DNA of 64,000 nt from Streptomyces sp. SLBN-31. GTDB taxonomy: Bacteria > Actinomycetota > Actinomycetes > Streptomycetales > Streptomycetaceae. How positions within the stretch are numbered: position 1 is the stretch's first letter; the number at the start of each line of letters is the position of its first letter. Made by a program: the position numbers and the translations under genes. This document shows, one piece after another, positions 3,387-34,455 of the stretch. The stretch lies in NCBI RefSeq assembly GCF_006715395.1, contig NZ_VFNC01000001.1, forward strand, positions 1,984,001 to 2,048,000, given 5' to 3'. The notes under the pieces were generated by a model. It worked only from the letters and a program-made list of their open reading frames with translations. It had not been told where the DNA came from and ran no database searches.

Positions 3387-4315
3387 GCCGGGACGACGGC
3401 GGACGGACCGTGCGGGCCGGGCGACGGACGGTGCAGATCCACCGGGCGGACAAGGTGCTCTTCCCGGGAGGCGGCGACGCGAAGGAGTACACCAAGGGCG
3501 ATCTCGTCGACTACTACCGGTCGGCCGCCCCGTTCATGCTGGCCCACCTGCGTGGCCGTCCGCTGATGCTGGAACGGCACCCGGACGGCATCGACGGCCC
3601 GCGCTTCATGCAGAAGAACACCCCCGAGAACTACCCGGACTGGATCACCCGCGTCGAGCTGGCCAAGGAGGGCGGCACCGTCTGCCACACCGTGTGCGAC
3701 GACGTGGCCACCCTCGTCTACCTGGCCGACCAGGCGGCCGTCACCCTGCACCGCTGGCTGTCCCGGGTGGACCGGGTGGACCGGCCCGACCGGATGGTGT
3801 TCGACCTGGATCCGGCGGGTGACGACTTCGCGGCGGTGCGCGAGGCGGCCCGGTGGCTGGGCGAGCTCCTCGACGAGCTGAAGCTGCCCTCCGCCCTGAT
3901 GACCACCGGCTCGCGCGGCCTGCACGTCGTGGTGCCCCTGGACGGCCGGCACGACTTCGACGAGGTACGGGAGTTCGCCCGGGACGTCGCCGAAGCCCTC
4001 GCCGGGGCCCATCCCGACCGGCTCACCACCGCCGCCCGCAAGAAGGACCGCGGGGACCGGCTCTACCTCGACGTGGGCCGCAACGCCTACGCGCAGACCG
4101 CGGTCGCACCCCTCACCGTCCGCGCCCTGCCCGGGGCGCCGGTGGCCACCCCCGTGGACTGGGCCCAGCTGGACGACCCGGCCGTGCACGCGCGCCGCTG
4201 GACGATCGCCGACGCGGTCGAGCAGGTCCGGGGCGACCCGTGGGCCGGCCTCATGAGCAGGAAACGCGCTCTCGGACCCGCCCGTCGCAGGCTGGACGCC
4301 TTGCGCGGCTCGTGA
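3383..4315 (+). CDS. ligD: LigD-type polymerase-domain protein (NHEJ primase-polymerase)
   Basis: Stand-alone 310-aa eukaryotic-primase-like polymerase domain of the LigD family, which fills gaps during Ku-dependent non-homologous end joining. The metal-binding DxD lies in MVFDLDPAGDDF (about residue 140), followed by the conserved TTGSRGLHVVVPL segment and the lysine/arginine-rich TTAARKKDRGDRLYLD region (about residues 212-227). No ligase or phosphoesterase domain is fused, as is common in Streptomyces where the activities are split. The GTG start overlaps the transketolase stop (GTGA). No ku gene is in the window, so the partner must lie elsewhere. Family assignment is firm; in vivo repair role is inferred. 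Confidence 0.88.
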   Translation: MSRDDGGRTVRAGRRTVQIHRADKVLFPGGGDAKEYTKGDLVDYYRSAAPFMLAHLRGRPLMLERHPDGIDGPRFMQKNTPENYPDWITRVELAKEGGTVCHTVCDDVATLVYLADQAAVTLHRWLSRVDRVDRPDRMVFDLDPAGDDFAAVREAARWLGELLDELKLPSALMTTGSRGLHVVVPLDGRHDFDEVREFARDVAEALAGAHPDRLTTAARKKDRGDRLYLDVGRNAYAQTAVAPLTVRALPGAPVATPVDWAQLDDPAVHARRWTIADAVEQVRGDPWAGLMSRKRALGPARRRLDALRGS

Positions 4316-23585: not shown

Positions 23586-24628
23586 CGCAGCAGTCCGAGT
23601 CGACCACCACCCGGGAAGCGGACGATCCGGCACCGGCGCCGGGGTTCGCGCCCCCCTTCCCGCCGCTCGCCGAGCCCCGCCCGCTGGGCGAACGCCGGGT
23701 GTGGCCGCGAACCTTCCACAACCGCCTGACCGCCCCTCTGCCCGGCCTGAAGGCCATGGCCCGCTTCGCCCGCGAAGGCTCCGTGCGCCCCGGCCGCGAG
23801 GGCCTCGCCGACATCCCCAGGCTCCCCTTCGCCCCCGCCCCCCTGCCCCGCGTCGACGCCGGCACACTGGCCGTCTCCTGGGCGGGCCACGCCAGTTGGG
23901 TGGTGCAGATCGGCGGACTGACCGTCCTCACCGACCCCGTCTGGTCCCGCCGCATCCTCGGCACCCCGGCACGCATCACGCCGGTCGGCATCCCCTGGGA
24001 GACCCTGCCGCGTGTCGACGCGGTCGTCATCAGCCACAACCACTACGACCATCTCGACGCCCCCACCCTGCGCCGACTGCCGCGCGACACCCCGGTGTTC
24101 GTGCCCGCCGGCCTCGGCCGCTGGTTCTACCGCCGGCGCTTCACCGAGGTCACGGAGCTGGACTGGTGGGAGGCGGCCGAACTCGGCGGGGTCCGCTTCG
24201 ACTTCGTCCCGGCACACCACTGGTCCAAGCGCACCCTCATCGACACCTGCCACTCACTGTGGGGCGGCTGGGTCCTGACCGCCCCCGACGGGCAGCGCGT
24301 CCACTTCGCGGGCGACACCGGCTACGGCCACTGGTTCTCCCGCATCGGCGAGCGCTACCCCGGCATCGACCTCGCCCTGCTGCCCATCGGCGCCTACGAC
24401 CCCCGCTGGTGGCTCAGCGACGTCCACTGCAACCCGGAGGAGGCGGTCAGAGCGGCCCAGGACCTCGGGGCACGGCGCATGGCGCCGATGCACTGGGGCA
24501 CGTTCGTGCTGTCGGCGGAGCCGGTCCTGGAACCGCTCACCCGCGTGCGCGCGGCCTGGGAGAAGGCGGGACTGGACCGCGCCGACCTGTGGGACCTGCC
24601 GGTCGGGGCGTCCCGGGTGCTGGAGTAG
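23582..24628 (+). CDS. MBL-fold metallo-hydrolase, NAPE-PLD/UlaG-like
   Basis: 348-aa metallo-beta-lactamase-fold hydrolase. Motif SHNHYDHLD (about residue 150) supplies the dinuclear metal site; further ligands are in FVPAHHWSKR, HFAGDTGYGHW and MAPMHWGTF. The N-terminal WPRTFHNRLTAPLPG and VSWAGHASWVVQIGG segments match the NAPE-PLD-like/UlaG group that act on phosphodiesters or lactones. ATG 23582 overlaps the aminotransferase-like stop. The two proteins are thus translated together and may be functional partners (inference). The 3' end borders a minisatellite. Confidence 0.85.
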   Translation: MTQQSESTTTREADDPAPAPGFAPPFPPLAEPRPLGERRVWPRTFHNRLTAPLPGLKAMARFAREGSVRPGREGLADIPRLPFAPAPLPRVDAGTLAVSWAGHASWVVQIGGLTVLTDPVWSRRILGTPARITPVGIPWETLPRVDAVVISHNHYDHLDAPTLRRLPRDTPVFVPAGLGRWFYRRRFTEVTELDWWEAAELGGVRFDFVPAHHWSKRTLIDTCHSLWGGWVLTAPDGQRVHFAGDTGYGHWFSRIGERYPGIDLALLPIGAYDPRWWLSDVHCNPEEAVRAAQDLGARRMAPMHWGTFVLSAEPVLEPLTRVRAAWEKAGLDRADLWDLPVGASRVLE

Positions 24629-24637
24629 CCACCCAAG

Positions 24638-24930
24638 CCGCCAGCCCGCCCAGGCCGTCAGCTGCGCAGGCCGTCAGCTGCGCAGGTCGTCAGCCGCCCA
24701 AGCGGCCAGCCACGCAAGCCGCCCAAGCCGTCAGCCGCGCAGGCCGTCAGCCACCCAAGCCGCCAGCTGCCCGGCCGTCAGCCGCGTAAGTCGTCAGCAG
24801 CGTAAGCCGATCAAGCCGTCAGCCGCCCAAGCCGCCAGCCACGCAAGCCGATCAAGCCGCCAGCCGGCCAGGCCGCCAGCCGCCCAAGCCGCCAGCCGCC
24901 CAAGCCGCCAGCCGCCCATACCGCCTAAGC
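24638..24930. repeat. 16-bp GC-rich minisatellite between convergent genes
   Basis: Some 17-20 imperfect copies of CCGYCAGCCGCSCAAG occupy the whole gap between the MBL gene and the DedA gene. Several 9-base half-units (such as CCGATCAAG) interrupt the array. The last three full copies are almost identical (about 24873-24920), suggesting recent expansion. The array ends inside the final codons of the DedA gene. There is no separate terminator. Confidence 0.9.
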
Positions 24931-25554
24931 CGTCGTCGTCCGGCGGATGCGGCGCCAGATGCCGGGGGTCGCACCGACGAGCACGGTCAGTGCGACCGCC
25001 GCGACCACACCCTCCCAGGGCTCCTCGAACAGCGACCCGCCCAGAATCCCGATCACCTGGTAGGTGGCCGCCCACGCGAGGCACGCCGGCAGGTTGCCCC
25101 GCGAGAAGCGCCGCAGCGGCCACTTCGCCATCAGACAGGCCAGCATCACCGGGATCCGGCCGGCCGGCACCAGTCGCGACAGCACCAGCACCGAGATGTT
25201 GTGCTCGGCCAGCTTGCGCTGCGCCTGCGCCAGCCGCTCCTCCGGCGCCCGCGACCTGATCGCCTCCAGCCAGCGGGATCCGTTCTTCGACTTCATCCCG
25301 CGCCGCCCGAGCCAATACAGGGCCGCGTCCCCGAGGAACGCGGCCAGCGACGCCGTCACGAACACCATCGCCAGCGCGAACGGCGCCGTCTGGTGGAACG
25401 CCACCACCGCGGCCGAACTCACCAGCGCGCCCGTCGGGATCACCGGCACCAGCGCCCCGAACAGCACGAGCAGGAACAGGGACGGATAACCGAGCGCCTG
25501 CTGGGTCGACTCGGGCGGCACGGTCGAGGTCACGGTGGCGGCGAGCCACATCAC
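24925..25554 (-). CDS. DedA family membrane protein
   Basis: 209 aa, DedA/VTT (SNARE-associated) domain, membrane lipid flippase family. Features: GYPSLFLLVLFGALVPVIPT near the N-terminus, the re-entrant FLGDAALYWLGRRGM, the conserved LVLSRLVPAGRIPVMLACLM with the critical Arg (about residues 123-142), and C-terminal helix GVVAAVALTVLVGATPGIW. The GTG at 25554 overlaps the upstream MBL stop by four bases, so the two are translated together. Confidence 0.88.
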   Translation of the reverse strand: MMWLAATVTSTVPPESTQQALGYPSLFLLVLFGALVPVIPTGALVSSAAVVAFHQTAPFALAMVFVTASLAAFLGDAALYWLGRRGMKSKNGSRWLEAIRSRAPEERLAQAQRKLAEHNISVLVLSRLVPAGRIPVMLACLMAKWPLRRFSRGNLPACLAWAATYQVIGILGGSLFEEPWEGVVAAVALTVLVGATPGIWRRIRRTTTA

Positions 25555-26815: not shown

Positions 26816-26912
26816 AGCCGCCCCCACGGAACGCCCCGGCCCCGCCGGACCTCGTGTGACAGGCTTGGTCCAGGCCCGCATCGACGACGGGCGGGACGTG
26901 AGGTGTGCGGGA

Positions 26913-28967
26913 GTGCGTGGCGGGCGTTGGCGAGGGATCGCCAGTCAGATGGGCCGGAGTGTCACGGTGTGGGCCGTCTCGACGGTCACCATGCTCGTGC
27001 TCGCCGGGATCCTGCCGGACTTCCGCCTGCAGTCCCCGGACGGCGAGAGCGCCACCCATATCGCCGTGACCGCCGCGGTCGGCGCCGGCGCCTTCGGTGT
27101 GCTGTCGGCCCTGGTCTGGCCGCTGCTGGTGCGGCTGCTGCTGCTCGTGCCCGCGCTCGTGCTGGGGCTGCTCGTCTTCGTCCTCAACGGCTCCCTGCTG
27201 CTGGTCGCCCTGCGGCTCAACCCCGCCAGCAGCGCCGAGGCGGCCCCCGAGACCGCCGTGGTGGTGGCCGCCGTGATGTCCGCCGTCGCCTCCGCCACCG
27301 GCGGTGCCCTCGCCGTCCGCGACGACGACGCCTACCGGCGGCGGCTCTACCGGCTCGCCGACCGCCGCCGCAGACGCCTGCCGCCCGGCCCGGCCTCCCC
27401 CGGAACCGTCTTCGTACAGCTCGACGGCGTCGGCCACGACGTCCTGGTGGACGCGGTCGACAGGGGCATCATGCCCACCGTCGCGCGGTGGCTGGGGTCC
27501 TCGCACCGGCTCACCCCCTGGCGCACCGACTGGTCCAGCCAGACCGGCGCCAGCCAGCTCGGCATCCTGCACGGCACCAACCACGACGTCCCCGCTTTCC
27601 GCTGGTACGACAAGGACAGCGGCGAGGTCATGGTCTGCAACCGCCCGACCAGCGCCGCGGAACTCCAGCGCCGCGCCGTGGAGTTCACCGGCGACGGCGG
27701 GCTGCTGACCCTCGACGGGGCCAGCCGCGGCAACCTCTTCGGCGGCGGCGCCGACGAGCAGGCCCTGGTGCTGTCCATCGCCACCCGCAGGCGCGGCCGG
27801 GAGAACCGCTCCCGGGCCGGCTACTTCGCCTACTTCTCCGACCCCGCCAACGCCGTGCGCACCGCCCTGTCCTTCGTCGCCGAGGTCGGCCGCGAGATCG
27901 GCCAGTCCACCCGGGCCCGCATCCGCAAGCAGCGCCCGCGGGTGTCGCGCGGCGGCCTCTACCCGCTCGTCCGCGCCTTCGCGACCGTCGTCGAACGGGA
28001 CGTCGTGGTCGCCGCGGTGATGGGCGACATGCTCGCCGGCCGCACCGCCGTCTACGCCGACCTGGTCGCCTACGACGAGGTCGCCCACCACTCGGGCCCG
28101 ACGAGCCGCGACGCCGGCAAGGTCCTCGAACGCCTCGACCGCGCGCTCGCGCTCATCGCGCACGTCGCCGAGCACGCCCCGCGGCCGTACCGGATCGTCG
28201 TGCTCTCGGACCACGGGCAGAGCCCCGGCGAGACCTTCCGCTCCCGGTACGGCCTCAGTCTCGGCGACCTGGTGCGGGCCGGCTGCGGGCTGCCCGTGCC
28301 GCGCCGGGCGCGGCGCACCCACAGCGGCGCCGAGGCCCGGGCCGCCGTGCGCGCGGCACTGCGCAGGCCCGTGGAGGGCGGCGAGCGGTACCACCCCTCG
28401 GGCCGCCGTGCCGAGCCGCTGGTGCTGGCCTCCGGCAACCTCGGCCTGGTCTCCTTCCCGGACGTGCCGCACCGGATGAGCAAGGAGGAGATCGACGCCC
28501 GGCACCCGGCCCTGCTGACGACCCTCGCCAACCATCCCGGCATCGGCTTCCTCCTCGTCCGCAGCGAGCGGCACGGCGGGGTCGTGCTCGGCGCGTACGG
28601 CGCCGAGATCCCGTTGGACGAACTCGACGACAAGACGGGCCCGTTGGCGGCCTTCGGGCCGGGCGCGGCCGACACGGTGCGGCGCACGCACTCCTTCCCG
28701 CACACCGCCGACATCATGGTCAACTCCTTCCACGACCCGGCCGACGGGGAGGTGTTGGCCTTCGAGGAGCAGATCGGCTCGCACGGCGGACTCGGCGGCG
28801 CGCAGGGCAGGCCCTTCCTGCTGTCGCCGGTCGCCCTCACGGCACCGGTCGACGACGGGTGCGAACTCGTCGGCGCCGAGCGGGTGCACCGCGTCCTGCG
28901 GCGCTGGCTGCGGGAGGCCGACGGCCCCCAGGTGCCGCTGCTCGAGGAAGGGGAGCAGGCGGCCTAG
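26913..28967 (+). CDS. Phage-holin-IV-like membrane domain fused to an alkaline-phosphatase-superfamily domain
   Basis: 684 aa. Residues about 12-125 carry four hydrophobic helices (VWAVSTVTMLVLAGILPDF, LLLVPALVLGLLVFVLNGSL) of the mycobacterial holin superfamily IV type. Residues 165-600 form an alkaline-phosphatase/phosphodiesterase fold: FVQLDGVGHDVLVDAV with the metal Asp, the nucleophile region TDWSSQTGASQLGILHGTNH, VAYDEVAHHSG and VVLSDHGQSPGETF. GTG 26913 has GAGGTG seven bases upstream; ATG 26949 and GTG 26856 are alternatives. The phosphatase domain is probably cytosolic or, less likely, outside; substrate unknown. Confidence 0.78.
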   Translation: MRGGRWRGIASQMGRSVTVWAVSTVTMLVLAGILPDFRLQSPDGESATHIAVTAAVGAGAFGVLSALVWPLLVRLLLLVPALVLGLLVFVLNGSLLLVALRLNPASSAEAAPETAVVVAAVMSAVASATGGALAVRDDDAYRRRLYRLADRRRRRLPPGPASPGTVFVQLDGVGHDVLVDAVDRGIMPTVARWLGSSHRLTPWRTDWSSQTGASQLGILHGTNHDVPAFRWYDKDSGEVMVCNRPTSAAELQRRAVEFTGDGGLLTLDGASRGNLFGGGADEQALVLSIATRRRGRENRSRAGYFAYFSDPANAVRTALSFVAEVGREIGQSTRARIRKQRPRVSRGGLYPLVRAFATVVERDVVVAAVMGDMLAGRTAVYADLVAYDEVAHHSGPTSRDAGKVLERLDRALALIAHVAEHAPRPYRIVVLSDHGQSPGETFRSRYGLSLGDLVRAGCGLPVPRRARRTHSGAEARAAVRAALRRPVEGGERYHPSGRRAEPLVLASGNLGLVSFPDVPHRMSKEEIDARHPALLTTLANHPGIGFLLVRSERHGGVVLGAYGAEIPLDELDDKTGPLAAFGPGAADTVRRTHSFPHTADIMVNSFHDPADGEVLAFEEQIGSHGGLGGAQGRPFLLSPVALTAPVDDGCELVGAERVHRVLRRWLREADGPQVPLLEEGEQAA

Positions 28968-29048: not shown

Positions 29049-30110
29049 TTGCAGGCCGCTGTCACCGTCACTCCCGCCCGTATCCCCGAACTGCTGCTGG
29101 GCCTGGCCACCGTCCGGCCCGTGTTCCTCTGGGGCGCGCCCGGCATCGGGAAGTCCTCGCTGGTGCGGGAGTTCGCCGAGTCGCTGGGCCTGGAGTGCGT
29201 GAGCCTGCTCGGCACCCAGCTGGCGCCGGAGGACCTGATCGGCGTGCCGCAGATCCGGGACGGGCGGTCGGTGTTCTGCCCGCCGGAGGCGATCGCCCGC
29301 GACGAGCCGTACTGCCTGTTCCTGGACGAGCTCAACGCGGCCTCCCCGGACGTGCAGAAGGCGTTCTACTCCCTCATCCTCGACCGCCGGATCGGCGACT
29401 ACGAACTGCCCAAGGGCTCCATCGTCATCGGCGCCGGCAACCGCGCCACGGACAACGCCCTCGCCCGCCCGATCGCCTCCGCCCTGGTCAACCGCCTCAC
29501 CCACGTCCACCTGGAGGCTTCCGCGAAGGACTGGCTGGCCTGGGCCGCGGGCCACGGCATCCACCCCTGGATCCTCGACCACCTCACCGACCGGCCCGAC
29601 CACCTGTGGTCCAAGCCGCCGAAGACCGAGGAGCCGTTCTCCACGCCCCGCTCCTGGCACATGCTCTCCGACGCGCTGCACTCGTTCGGCCGCGACCTCG
29701 ACGAGGACACCCTCAAGGTTCTCGCGCACGGCACCCTGACGCCCGCGCACGCCACCGCCTTCTGCGGCTACGTCAAGATCGTGCGCAGCCGGTTCGGCAT
29801 CGAGGCGATCATCAAGGGCGACGCCCCCTGGCCGAACCGCGTCGAGGAACGCGACCTGCTCTACTACCTCGCCGAGTCCTTCCGCGGCCGCCTGGTCAAG
29901 GAACTCCCGGTCAGCAAGGAGCACATGTCGGCGAACGGCCGGCAGACCGCGTACCGCGCCAAGTCGCTTCTGGTGCAGCTCGCGGAGATCTCCGTCGAGG
30001 TCGCCCAGACCGTCATCGCCTCCGACGAGGACGGCAACCCCGTACTGCCGTCGTGGTTCCTCATCGAGGCGGCCCGGGACATGCCGCGGCTGGTGGAGGC
30101 GCGGCGGTGA
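29049..30110 (+). CDS. MoxR-type AAA+ ATPase
   Basis: 353 aa. Walker A WGAPGIGKSSLVREF (about residue 30), Walker B CLFLDELNAASPDVQKAFYS (about residue 82), sensor 1 GAGNRATDNALARPI and arginine-finger region ASALVNRLTHV. TTG start with AAGGAA five bases upstream. MoxR ATPases remodel or activate partner proteins, usually VWA-domain proteins encoded next door; here the partner gene overlaps by GTGA. Not GvpN, despite kinship, because it lacks GvpN context. Confidence 0.88.
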   Translation: MQAAVTVTPARIPELLLGLATVRPVFLWGAPGIGKSSLVREFAESLGLECVSLLGTQLAPEDLIGVPQIRDGRSVFCPPEAIARDEPYCLFLDELNAASPDVQKAFYSLILDRRIGDYELPKGSIVIGAGNRATDNALARPIASALVNRLTHVHLEASAKDWLAWAAGHGIHPWILDHLTDRPDHLWSKPPKTEEPFSTPRSWHMLSDALHSFGRDLDEDTLKVLAHGTLTPAHATAFCGYVKIVRSRFGIEAIIKGDAPWPNRVEERDLLYYLAESFRGRLVKELPVSKEHMSANGRQTAYRAKSLLVQLAEISVEVAQTVIASDEDGNPVLPSWFLIEAARDMPRLVEARR

Positions 30111-31909
30111 GCCGCACCAAGGGCAAGGGGCAGAAGAAGAAACGGGACGTCGCGGCCGAGGCGTTCGCCGAGGGGATGCGCCTGCTGAAGGCCAACCCGG
30201 CCCTCGCCGCCGTCGAGTTCGACGTGTGCCGGCACGAGGAGTGCCGACTCGCCCCGCGCGACGGGCTCGTGGTAGTCGACTCCGACGCGGACCTGCATGT
30301 CCACCCCAACCGCCTCGCCGAACCCGCCACCTGGGCCTGGGCGCTCGCGCACGCCGTCCTCCACCTCGGCTTCGGGCACGTCCCGGCGGCGAAGGGCGAG
30401 CGTGTCCAGCCGGACCGTTTCGACCTCGCCGCGCGCTGCGTCGTCGTCAACCGCTTCCTGCTGAACTTCACCGTCGGCGAGACCCCCGAAGCGCTCCCCG
30501 CCTCCTATCCCGACGGCGACGAGGAGCGGCTCGCGGCACGCTGGCGCCGCGACGGCATCCCGCCCGCCTACGAGCGCTGCGGCACGGCCGGCGACGAGCC
30601 CGACCAACTGCTCCTGAGATGGAACGGCTGGTACGGCGGCCCGCCTGACCACCAGCTGGCTTTCGCCGCCGCCCTGACCCGGACCGTGTCGGCGGCGATG
30701 GACATGGCGGGCGGCCGCCGCGACTCCCTCGACGGCGAGGTGGCCCCGCGGCGTCCCTGGCAGAAGGCGCTGAGCTGGTTCGTCTCCTCCTACCCGCTGC
30801 TCGGCGGTATCGCGGCCGGCATCACCCTGGTCGCCGACGCCGAACTCGCCCGCGCCCACGGCATCTCCGTGGCCGCCGTGAACCCGGAGGCCGGCGAGAT
30901 CTACGTCAACCCGCTGCGTCAACTCGAGGACGAGGAGTGGCGGTTCGTCCTCGCCCACGAGATGCTGCACGCCGCCCTGCGCCACGGCGACCGCTGCGGC
31001 ACCCGCGACCCCTACCTCTTCAACATCGCCTGCGACTACGTCATCAACGGCTGGCTGATCGAGATGCAGGTCGGCACCATGCCCGAGGGCCTGCTCCACG
31101 ACCCCGCGCTCGCCGGCCTGTCCGCCGAGGAGGTCTACGACCGCATCGCCGGCGACCTGCGCCGCATGCGGCGCCTGGCCACCCTGCGCGGCAAGGGCGT
31201 CGGCGACGTGCTCGGCGCCCCGCTCGGCCCGCCCGGCACCCACGTCGACCTCGACGAGTTCTACCGCCGGGGCCTCGGCCAGGGCCTGGACCTCCACCAG
31301 CGGCAGGAACGCGGCTACCTGCCGGGCGGCCTGGTCGAGGAGATCCGGGCGCTCAGCCAGCCGCCCCTGCCCTGGGACGCGCGACTCGCCCGCTGGTTCG
31401 ACGAGTTCGTGCCCAGCCCGCAGCCCGTCCGGACGTACGCGCGTCCCTCCCGCCGCCAGTCCTCCACCCCGGACATCCCGCGCGCGGGCCACTACTTCCC
31501 GCCCGAGGAGATCGCCCGCTGCACCTTCGGCGTCGTCCTCGACACCTCCGGCTCCATGAACCACACGCTGCTGGGCAAGGCACTGGGCGCGATCGCCTCC
31601 TACGCCGAGGCCCGCGACGTGCCCGCCGCCCGCGTCGTCTTCTGCGACGCCGCCCCGCAGGACGCGGGCTATCTGCCGGTGACCGAGATCGCGGGCCGGG
31701 TCCGTGTGCACGGCCGCGGCGGTACGGTCCTGCAGCCCGGGATCGACCTGCTGCACCGGGCGGACGACTTCCCGCCGGGCGCGCCCGTCCTCGTGATCAC
31801 CGACGGCTGGTGCGACGTGCTGCGGGTCCGCCGCGAGCACGCCTACCTGATTCCGCAGGGGGCACGGCTGCCGTTCACCCCCCGCGGGCCGGTCTTCCGG
31901 GTGCGCTGA
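30107..31909 (+). CDS. Putative metallopeptidase (DUF2201-like) fused to a VWA domain, with internal duplication
   Basis: 600 aa. Residues 279-296 contain an HExxH zinc site (VLAHEMLHAALRHGD) in a DUF2201-type putative metallopeptidase. Residues about 63-131 repeat the same block with a dead site HAVLH (82-86): compare NRLAEPATWAWALAHAVLH with RQLEDEEWRFVLAHEMLH, and LLNFTVGETPEAL with LIEMQVGTMPEGL. From about residue 470 a VWA domain carries the MIDAS DTSGSM. GTG 30107 overlaps the MoxR stop, so the two are co-produced in a MoxR-VWA pair. Whether it cleaves proteins is unproven. Confidence 0.85.
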   Translation: MSRTKGKGQKKKRDVAAEAFAEGMRLLKANPALAAVEFDVCRHEECRLAPRDGLVVVDSDADLHVHPNRLAEPATWAWALAHAVLHLGFGHVPAAKGERVQPDRFDLAARCVVVNRFLLNFTVGETPEALPASYPDGDEERLAARWRRDGIPPAYERCGTAGDEPDQLLLRWNGWYGGPPDHQLAFAAALTRTVSAAMDMAGGRRDSLDGEVAPRRPWQKALSWFVSSYPLLGGIAAGITLVADAELARAHGISVAAVNPEAGEIYVNPLRQLEDEEWRFVLAHEMLHAALRHGDRCGTRDPYLFNIACDYVINGWLIEMQVGTMPEGLLHDPALAGLSAEEVYDRIAGDLRRMRRLATLRGKGVGDVLGAPLGPPGTHVDLDEFYRRGLGQGLDLHQRQERGYLPGGLVEEIRALSQPPLPWDARLARWFDEFVPSPQPVRTYARPSRRQSSTPDIPRAGHYFPPEEIARCTFGVVLDTSGSMNHTLLGKALGAIASYAEARDVPAARVVFCDAAPQDAGYLPVTEIAGRVRVHGRGGTVLQPGIDLLHRADDFPPGAPVLVITDGWCDVLRVRREHAYLIPQGARLPFTPRGPVFRVR

Positions 31910-31966: not shown

Positions 31967-32395
31967 GTGGCAACCACGCGCTCCGCACACACCGTATGGG
32001 AAGGCAACCTGCTCGAGGGCAGCGGTGTCGTGAACTTCGACTCCTCCGGGGCCATCGAGGCGCAGCCGGTGACGTGGGCCTCGCGCTCCCAGGACGCGAA
32101 CGGCAAGACCAGCCCCGAGGAGCTGATCGCCGCCGCGCACTCCAGCTGCTTCTCCATGGCGCTGTCGCACGCCCTGAACGGCGCCGGCACCCCGCCCACC
32201 AAGCTCGTCACATCGGCGGACGTCAATTTCCAGCCGGGTGAGGGCATCACCGGCATCCACCTCACCGTCGAGGGCACGGTCCCCGGCATCGACGACGACG
32301 CCTTCGTCGCCGCGGCCGAGGACGCCAAGAAGAACTGCCCGGTCAGCCAGGCCCTGACCGGCACGACGATCACCCTGTCGGCCAAGCTCGCCTGA
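31967..32395 (+). CDS. OsmC/Ohr family peroxiredoxin
   Basis: 142-aa thiol-dependent hydroperoxide reductase of the OsmC type. The two catalytic cysteines are in AAAHSSCFSMALSHAL (about residue 58) and KKNCPVSQAL (about residue 124), and the conserved SPEELIAAAHSSC motif is intact. GTG start with GGAAGGA upstream. Detoxifies organic hydroperoxides in the cytosol; monocistronic with a strong terminator downstream. Confidence 0.92.
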   Translation: MATTRSAHTVWEGNLLEGSGVVNFDSSGAIEAQPVTWASRSQDANGKTSPEELIAAAHSSCFSMALSHALNGAGTPPTKLVTSADVNFQPGEGITGIHLTVEGTVPGIDDDAFVAAAEDAKKNCPVSQALTGTTITLSAKLA

Positions 32396-32426
32396 AGCGG
32401 CCGAGCCCGCCCGACCACGGGCCACA

Positions 32427-32466
32427 GGTGCCGCGCCCCGTCCCCGGAGCGCGGCACCGCCGTTTT
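32427..32466 (+). terminator. Rho-independent terminator of the osmC-type gene
   Basis: Arms GGTGCCGCGC (32427-32436) and GCGCGGCACC (32449-32458) are perfectly complementary around a 12-base loop, followed by GCCGTTTT. Confidence 0.8.
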
Positions 32467-32515
32467 ACGGGGTACCCGAGAGCCGTTCTCCGGGGGTACC
32501 CGGGACCTACGCGGC

Positions 32516-32536
32516 ATTGACAACAGCGCACTCAAG
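32516..32536 (+). promoter_or_regulatory. HAIR-like HspR operator overlapping a -35 box before dnaK
   Basis: ATTGACA, seven bases, then ACTCAAG. The right half is a perfect HAIR half-site (consensus CTTGAGT-N7-ACTCAAG); the left keeps only TTGA. TTGACA at 32517-32522 can also serve as a -35 box, with a weak -10 about 32540. Two GGGTACCC palindromes (about 32470-32477 and 32494-32501) stand just upstream. Confidence 0.55.
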
Positions 32537-32580
32537 TTTTGTGCTGGAGTCTGAGAAGTGCCTGGCGGAAGGGGACGGAG

Positions 32581-34451
<1,871 letters not shown>

Positions 34452-34455
<4 letters not shown>

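Follow-up and report, generated by a model that had tools for sequence, protein, structure and literature searches.

A MoxR partner protein of Streptomyces with a duplicated zincin domain, one copy probably silent and one apparently active, and its RNA-repair neighborhood outside the actinobacteria

Why would the partner protein of a MoxR-type AAA+ ATPase carry two versions of one peptidase domain, the first of which has kept its histidines and lost its glutamate? The question is raised by a two-gene locus of Streptomyces sp. SLBN-31, which lies in a stretch of 64,000 nucleotides of contig NZ_VFNC01000001.1 (positions 1,984,001 to 2,048,000), hereafter the window. The partner, P0001 (window 30107..31909, plus strand, 600 amino acids, GTG start), consists of a putative pseudo-zincin, a zincin, a linker, and a VWA domain, and its start overlaps the TGA stop of the MoxR-type AAA+ ATPase gene (29049..30110, plus strand, 353 amino acids, TTG start as listed; Pfam AAA_5, E 6.4e-12) in the letters GTGA at 30107-30110. 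MoxR-VWA machines are found widely; clients are known for few of them. Here, homologous domains that differ in a catalytic residue share one motor, and a branch with both domains dead exists in nature, which makes the purpose of a pseudo-enzyme directly testable. We regard the internal tandem duplication, its dead/live asymmetry, and their conservation as near certain. As to function, we propose, tentatively, an old two-gene cassette encoding a MoxR-driven chaperone or peptidase that acts in the response to RNA damage and whose first zincin is silent but binds metal.

The first-pass annotation of this DNA had described residues 63-131 and 265-333 as a duplication, and this was borne out over a somewhat longer region: BLASTP of residues 1-220 against residues 221-600 paired residues 26-130 with approximately 224-329 (E 5e-8, 29% identity across 111 amino acids). 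Profiles of copy 1 and copy 2 built from 55 orthologues matched each other in hhalign (E 3.4e-8, probability 95), and the Smith-Waterman score of the two copies was 97, as compared with a mean of 30.4 (standard deviation 5.0, maximum 54) for shuffled sequences, 0 of 2000 of which reached 97, and with 25-35 for four control pieces taken from MoxR and the rest of P0001. The BLASTP, hhalign, and shuffling results rule out a chance likeness of the two halves. The "shared W-A-L-A-H core" of the first-pass annotation held in part: the two copies (WAWALAHAVLH and WRFVLAHEMLH, respectively) share the letters W-x3-L-A-H and not the full core. The reading of HAVLH in copy 1 versus HEMLH in copy 2 was correct.

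The Pfam model DUF2201_N (PF13203) matches P0001 in two stretches (E 6.8e-26; 91.9 bits versus a curated cut-off of 23.2), with the best match at residues 219-451. Copy 1 of P0001 alone goes unrecognized by Pfam, and in 21 of 52 relatives copy 1 is matched by the same model at E <= 0.01 (best, 1.4e-9). The predicted structure has the secondary elements of both copies in identical order, and copy 1 modeled alone gave a confident fold with zincins as its best structural matches; to this extent the models agree with two similar domains and a probable metallopeptidase fold of copy 1. The closest solved fold to copy 1 is selecase MJ1213 (PDB 4qhf, 4qhi), a minigluzincin that, unlike the duplicated P0001, is a single small domain of ~110 residues; the same protein is the closest PDB sequence to copy 2, with an E value of 1.1e-5 that covers only ~39 profile positions. 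Searching PDB with the copy-1 profile returned weak rows only, including YbeY at E 0.3, and the best 50 of 246 Foldseek matches to the full-length model were, judged by title and with few exceptions, VWA/I-domain entries or entries that include such domains, none of them at E <= 0.001.

What, then, has the first copy lost? Residues were counted over 368 distinct full-length relatives, comprising the best-scoring 120 of 3999 and 120 of 4801 matches over threshold plus 128 from loci; smaller sets of 55 orthologues and 128 distinct proteins were also used. Copy 1 (30149..30553, plus strand; residues ~15-149) has the motif H82-A83-V-L-H86-L-G-F-G-H91 (HAVLHLGFGH, 30350..30379, plus strand), with three His present and Glu absent, and C111 further on. 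H82, H86, and H91 were each found in 368 of 368 relatives, and likewise throughout the two smaller sets, although the strict conservation in the 368 is partly a selection effect, because this set was made of best-scoring matches. Position 83 was not Glu in any protein of the smaller sets and was Glu in none of the 368 (Ala 186, Cys 162, Gly 7, Ser 6, Leu 5, Thr 1, Val 1). Copy 2 (30755..31150, plus strand; residues ~217-348) has H284-E285-M-L-H288-A-A-L-R-H293 and D310, and in the same set H284, E285, H288, H293, and D310 were each retained in 368 of 368. A segment of residues ~150-216 (30554..30754, plus strand), with a helix predicted at 182-201, separates the two. In zincin chemistry, the HExxH Glu serves as the catalytic base and not as a zinc ligand; the ligands are the His residues. 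Copy 1 lacks the base but retains its His residues, so that its zinc site should not be called lost: the loss assumed by the first-pass annotation is excluded by the conservation of the three His, and only the catalytic Glu is gone. The same annotation's idea of a dead and a live peptidase copy in one chain is supported, at the level of conserved residues, by the absence of Glu from copy 1 versus the intact HExxH of copy 2. Copy 1 is therefore probably a catalytically silent, metal-binding zincin, and copy 2 is apparently an active one. Copy 1 is 2.6 times more variable (mean tree distance 2.23 versus 0.84 for copy 2 in 31 proteins), and its zero-entropy columns are W76, H82, H86, H91, and G124; the tree distances of copy 1 are correlated with those of copy 2 (r 0.70).

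Exceptions to this pattern are among the 32 proteins (the query's own record included) that were found with a plasmid protein of Deinococcus sp. QL22 (761 amino acids; L183:2777-5062) and assessed separately from the 368. Ten of them (P0243-P0252, including the QL22 record) have a copy 2 without HExxH (e.g., AELALHLLLGH) and a copy 1 without the His motif, and keep the VWA motif DTSxS despite both copies being dead. In another ten (P0253-P0256, P0258, P0259, P0261-P0263, and P0265), copy 1 has all three His and lacks the Glu. Arg replaces H82 in P0257, only a piece of copy 1 is left in P0264, and no copy 1 is recognizable in P0266-P0274, two of which (P0269 and P0271) also lack the HExxH Glu (IHVLNH and IHLLNH). 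Catalytic residues were therefore lost more than once, while the rest was retained. To judge by the doubly dead branch, cutting is not required for gripping and remodeling. Next to the QL22 gene are a MoxR gene (35% identical) and, nearby, a TerD-family gene. One further protein, P0260 (422 amino acids, no copy 1), was considered as a pre-duplication ancestor and rejected: it lies inside the copy-2 clade, and the segment between the copies is where its reading begins, so that truncation or secondary loss appears likelier.

The pairing with MoxR is constant. We kept 80 loci of 503 confirmed relatives from a scan of genome contigs, and a same-strand MoxR relative stands upstream of the partner in all 80 (in two pieces in L124), overlapping it or separated by <=60 bases in 76 of 80 and with an in-frame 4-base overlap in 51 of 80. 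The coupling by GTGA that the first-pass annotation had pointed out is thus confirmed and recurs, as a MoxR neighborhood, in several phyla. Nineteen of the 80 loci are named as belonging to non-actinobacterial phyla (by titles and genera, Acidobacteria, Firmicutes, Cyanobacteria, Melainabacteria, Proteobacteria, Planctomycetota, Armatimonadetes, and Spirochaetota), which excludes an actinobacteria-only trait, and three are named only "bacterium." Plasmid-borne copies occur in Streptomyces, Nostoc, Sphaerospermopsis, and Miltoncostaea. In a tree with 76 tips, which leaves out four of eight single-copy loci (L074, L075, L077, and L079) as well as L103 (a duplicate of L046), the 31 sequences of copy 1 all fall into a single clade (support 83), and the 31 of copy 2 all group with P0260 in another (support 94). 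A single duplication followed by joint inheritance of both copies would fit these sequences best. The pair is far from universal: a phylum-wide sample had a match in 11 of 396 genomes, 7 of them full-length, and four samples elsewhere had matches in 14/198, 10/194, 1/196, and 11/196 genomes, many of which were weak and single-copy.

Of 81 MoxR sequences, at least 80 conserve the residues of Walker A (GxPGIGKS), Walker B (LFLDEL), and sensor 1 (GAGNR). The metal ion-dependent adhesion site (MIDAS) of the VWA domain (31523..31906, plus strand; residues ~473-600) is intact, as had been noted from the sequence, with D479, T540, and D566 in 368 of the 368 relatives and S481 and S483 in 367 each. 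In front of it lies the linker RTYARPSRRQSSTPDIPR (31430..31483, plus strand; residues 442-459), which has near-invariant positions across phyla (R449, Q451, and I457 in 368/368 each) and low model confidence, especially at 448-454. Our guess is that it might be a docking or substrate-like segment. An RPxRR stretch like that of the linker is also visible in the single-copy paralogue of the same genome.

What the cassette may do is suggested by its neighbors outside the actinobacteria, where an RNA-repair neighborhood, which the first-pass annotation did not anticipate, is well supported. RtcB is encoded in three of 31 compared loci, from different groups (L106, Ammoniphilus; L110, Oceanirhabdus; L112, Nitrosospira); the other recurrent neighbors in these 31 are ABC-transporter genes at varying distance and genes common to three related actinobacteria. 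With more sequence, this Nitrosospira locus (then L226; G589:C54, 2230-15328) shows ten genes that share a strand, are separated by no more than ~160 bases, and encode Ro60 (TROVE and Ro60 vWA), a 122-residue open reading frame (3878-4243; no Pfam match), RtcB, RtcA, RlaP, RlaP, Hen1, MoxR, the partner, and Pnkp, in this order, and an RtcR regulator gene stands divergent in front of the run. The genes for Pnkp and Hen1 are described as sharing an operon (PMC4411300, from the part of the text available); in L226, the pair sits between the two. In L110, the partner gene is followed by genes for Ro60, RtcB, and a WCX-domain protein; in G641 and G764 (L216 and L217), Hen1 and Pnkp genes are divergent and adjoin MoxR; and in G798 (L213), RtcB lies ~7 kb from the pair, with restriction-type genes in between. 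This last interval (L213:5071-9655, G798:C39) contains DUF2357-PDDEXK_7 and AAA_5 genes that resemble McrBC-type restriction.

A link to RNA repair within ~9 kb was present in 6 of 39 genomes versus 0.30 expected (P 5e-7). In held-out genomes with a full-length pair it was present in 3 of 17 versus 0.14 expected (P 3e-4), or in 2 of 16 when the related G641 and G764 were counted once (P 0.007). The expectation used base rates among the 39 genomes for RtcB (31), Pnkp (22), and TROVE (12), with Hen1, RtcA, and RlaP entering without a base rate; G670, whose partner gene is stop-broken and split, was left out, pieces of one gene were merged in the counts, and many contigs end close to the cassette. 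Operons of this kind (Pnkp-Hen1; RtcR-rtcBA with Ro60) are described in PMC4411300 and PMC11090510, in the parts of these papers at hand, and six non-actinobacterial loci place the pair among such genes. The same parts of both papers name no MoxR, VWA, or peptidase partner, and a search of PMC4411300 for MoxR, AAA, von Willebrand, and peptidase gave no match.

These RNA-repair neighbor genes suggest RNA damage as the likely setting of the cassette. By analogy with other MoxR-VWA pairs, the MoxR ring may act on the partner via the VWA domain, whose MIDAS would hold an acidic residue of the target; ATP hydrolysis would then twist or pull, as in NorQ/NorD, and the target might be presented to copy 2 for cleavage. 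Copy 1 would not cleave; it may position the substrate or else stabilize or shape copy 2. In the RNA-damage setting, the machine could remodel or trim proteins on broken RNA, or else the repair enzymes or whatever regulates them, and so enable Hen1, Pnkp, RtcB, and Ro60 to do their work. With this neighborhood there is, for the first time, a concrete pointer to a role, which existing RNA-cleavage assays can test. A more specific version, in which the pair is the ATP-driven protease arm of RNA repair, copy 1 is a metal-held reader that chooses what is presented to copy 2, and the Deinococcus-type branch only grips and remodels, strikes us as unlikely.

Two observations weigh against an RNA-repair link. 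None was seen in the other 58 of the 80 loci, which are mostly from Streptomyces, and the genome of the window itself carries its Pnkp, RtcB, and TROVE genes at a great distance from the pair; since the pair stands apart from RNA-repair genes there, a role in RNA repair in Streptomyces is an extrapolation. Alternatively, the pair may be a chaperone that assembles proteins or metal sites in general and is not tied to RNA in particular, its RNA-repair neighbors being due to shared stress regulation or gene islands; MoxR and VWA would then open a client enzyme, as NorQD does, and both zincin copies would hold metal or target. This account is possible, if somewhat doubtful. It gains from the 33 of the 39 genomes that have no RNA-repair neighbor beside the pair, from the doubly dead Deinococcus-type branch, which retains the VWA domain, and MoxR where examined, from the metal residues that copy 1 retains without a base, and from the MoxR-VWA pairs of known function, which remodel clients or insert metal (PMC13036017, as far as the accessible text goes). 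In the same portion of that paper, the VWA finger of NorD is described as entering the MoxR ring, and ATP hydrolysis as twisting and stretching the NorD linker. NorQ/NorD shares with the present pair a MoxR AAA+ ATPase and a VWA partner with the DxSxS-T-D MIDAS and an N-terminal domain; however, no peptidase domain of NorD is mentioned there, and a pore-inserted finger of the NorD type was not found in P0001. Hard to reconcile with an assembly chaperone are the copy-2 Glu, present in 368 of 368 best-scoring relatives and difficult to explain without catalysis, and the position of the L226 pair between Hen1 and Pnkp within a tight gene run.

Copy 1 might instead be a regulatory metal or redox sensor, in which an HC/HA..H....H plus Asp/Cys site takes up or gives off a metal, or becomes oxidized, and thereby switches copy 2 or the docking of MoxR. 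Cys takes the position of the catalytic Glu in 162 of the 368 relatives. At position 111, the counterpart of Asp310 in copy 2, the residue is Cys in 227, Asp in 131, Asn in 9, and Glu in 1 (counted by ungapped anchoring on F117, as the automatic alignment had a gap near residue 111), and Cys stands at 83 or 111 in 350 of 368. A redox role would also agree with the genes beside the window pair, where an OsmC-like gene and an Hsp70 (DnaK-like) gene follow directly downstream (31967-34455); among the 80 loci, OsmC is nearby in 30, Hsp70 in 20, and the phosphodiesterase gene of the window in 31. The remaining loci, of which many are from Streptomyces, have different neighbors. On the other hand, residue 111 tracks groups (Cys in 101 of 101 proteins outside a set of 27, Asp in 20 of that 27) and may reflect inheritance rather than function. 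Most sequences from outside the Streptomyces order have WNxACD in this stretch, like copy 2. The window's neighbor genes were not found at the non-actinobacterial loci. Taken together, a sensor appears quite improbable to us.

We attach a similarly small likelihood to a conflict module directed against phages, mobile elements, or their ribotoxins, with the phage homologues as captured versions. Its appeal lies in a patchy distribution. In the order to which the window belongs, a match is present in 81 of 197 genomes, of which 69 are full-length (one with an internal TAG), one is split over two contigs, one is weak (G407), and ten are remnants only. At the ten remnant loci, the window's phosphodiesterase-like neighbor is present in all ten and the OsmC gene in six, and tblastn found MoxR to be absent in eight and reduced to an N-terminal fragment in two; at these loci, therefore, both genes of the pair disappeared together from the place that they occupy in the window. 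A single ancestral Streptomyces site for the pair is contradicted by the differing neighbors at many Streptomyces loci. The plasmid occurrence, the restriction-type genes between the pair and RtcB in L213 (DUF2357/PDDEXK_7 and AAA_5), and the fact that RNA repair itself answers ribotoxins (PMC4411300) point in the same direction, as do 257 phage records with relatives of the copy 2 plus VWA part. Only one of these records, an unverified 15-kb fecal clone, covers >=80% of the query, and 19 of 20 among the matches listed start at or near copy 2. A conflict role is countered by the slow evolution of copy 2, by the lack of a constant third component, and by the absence of any PADLOC model better than E 0.008. 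Two established kinds of conflict system were considered and rejected: the MoxR-vWA ternary system (PMC7159879, in the portion seen), as no third component occupies a constant place in the 31 loci, and a known PADLOC defense protein, as that best E value was for the ATPase and the partner had no match. The bpMoxR profile scored 23.6 bits on the ATPase versus a cut-off of 27.

Least credible, to the point of being negligible, is that the halves are alike by chance or that copy 1 is not peptidase-like, as might be thought from the failure of Pfam on copy 1 of P0001 alone, given the shuffles, the hhalign match, the DUF2201_N hits on copy 1 of relatives, and the zincins that lead its structural list.

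How much of this arrangement has precedents? The parts and the MoxR-partner pairing are known. DUF2201_N/DUF2201 (PF13203/PF09967) proteins have the architecture of copy 2 plus VWA, with HExxHxxxxH ... NxAxD; P0001 differs in its added N-terminal silent peptidase copy and in a VWA domain that scores under the curated cut-off of DUF2201 (PF09967; residues 476-566, E 3.2e-4). NCBIfam gave no match for the partner, and no characterized DUF2201_N member was seen among the papers listed in the literature searches. The host genome (9.47 Mb) carries a second, single-copy DUF2201 gene elsewhere (G000:C2:1284615), and the ATPase encoded upstream of it is related to the MoxR studied here (35% over residues 15-154). 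The pairing of a dead with a live half is familiar from M16 metallopeptidases (insulysin, MPP alpha/beta), which differ in fold and motif and have no MoxR or VWA. In group 2.2 jumbo phages, a MoxR and metallopeptidase-vWA pair has been proposed to act in virion assembly with processing of structural proteins (PMC7824862, from the available part of the article); it has an ATPase and a peptidase-VWA partner, as here, and nearly all listed phage matches begin at or near copy 2. Genes 24 and 25 of N4-like phages are reported, in the sections at hand of PMC4193335 and PMC2784036, to encode an AAA-type ATPase and a vWFA protein of unknown role; gene 25 may belong to the present family. In Erwinia phage Frozen (L188:2870-5020), the gene for a 364-residue metallopeptidase-domain protein comes immediately after an AAA gene. 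The dead/live duplication with kept metal residues and the RNA-repair link were not found in the literature searched, a search that mostly did not extend to subscription papers; neither appears in the accessible parts of PMC7824862, PMC7159879, PMC5735904, PMC11090510, and PMC4411300.

The closest protein matches to P0001 are 95-97% identical and come from named Streptomyces. Upstream of the pair, the window encodes a protein fusing a Phage_holin_4_2-type membrane part to a type I phosphodiesterase domain (26856-28967), and still further upstream it has a degenerate tandem repeat at 24627-24932, with a unit of ~16 bases, 18.6 copies, and 71% matches.

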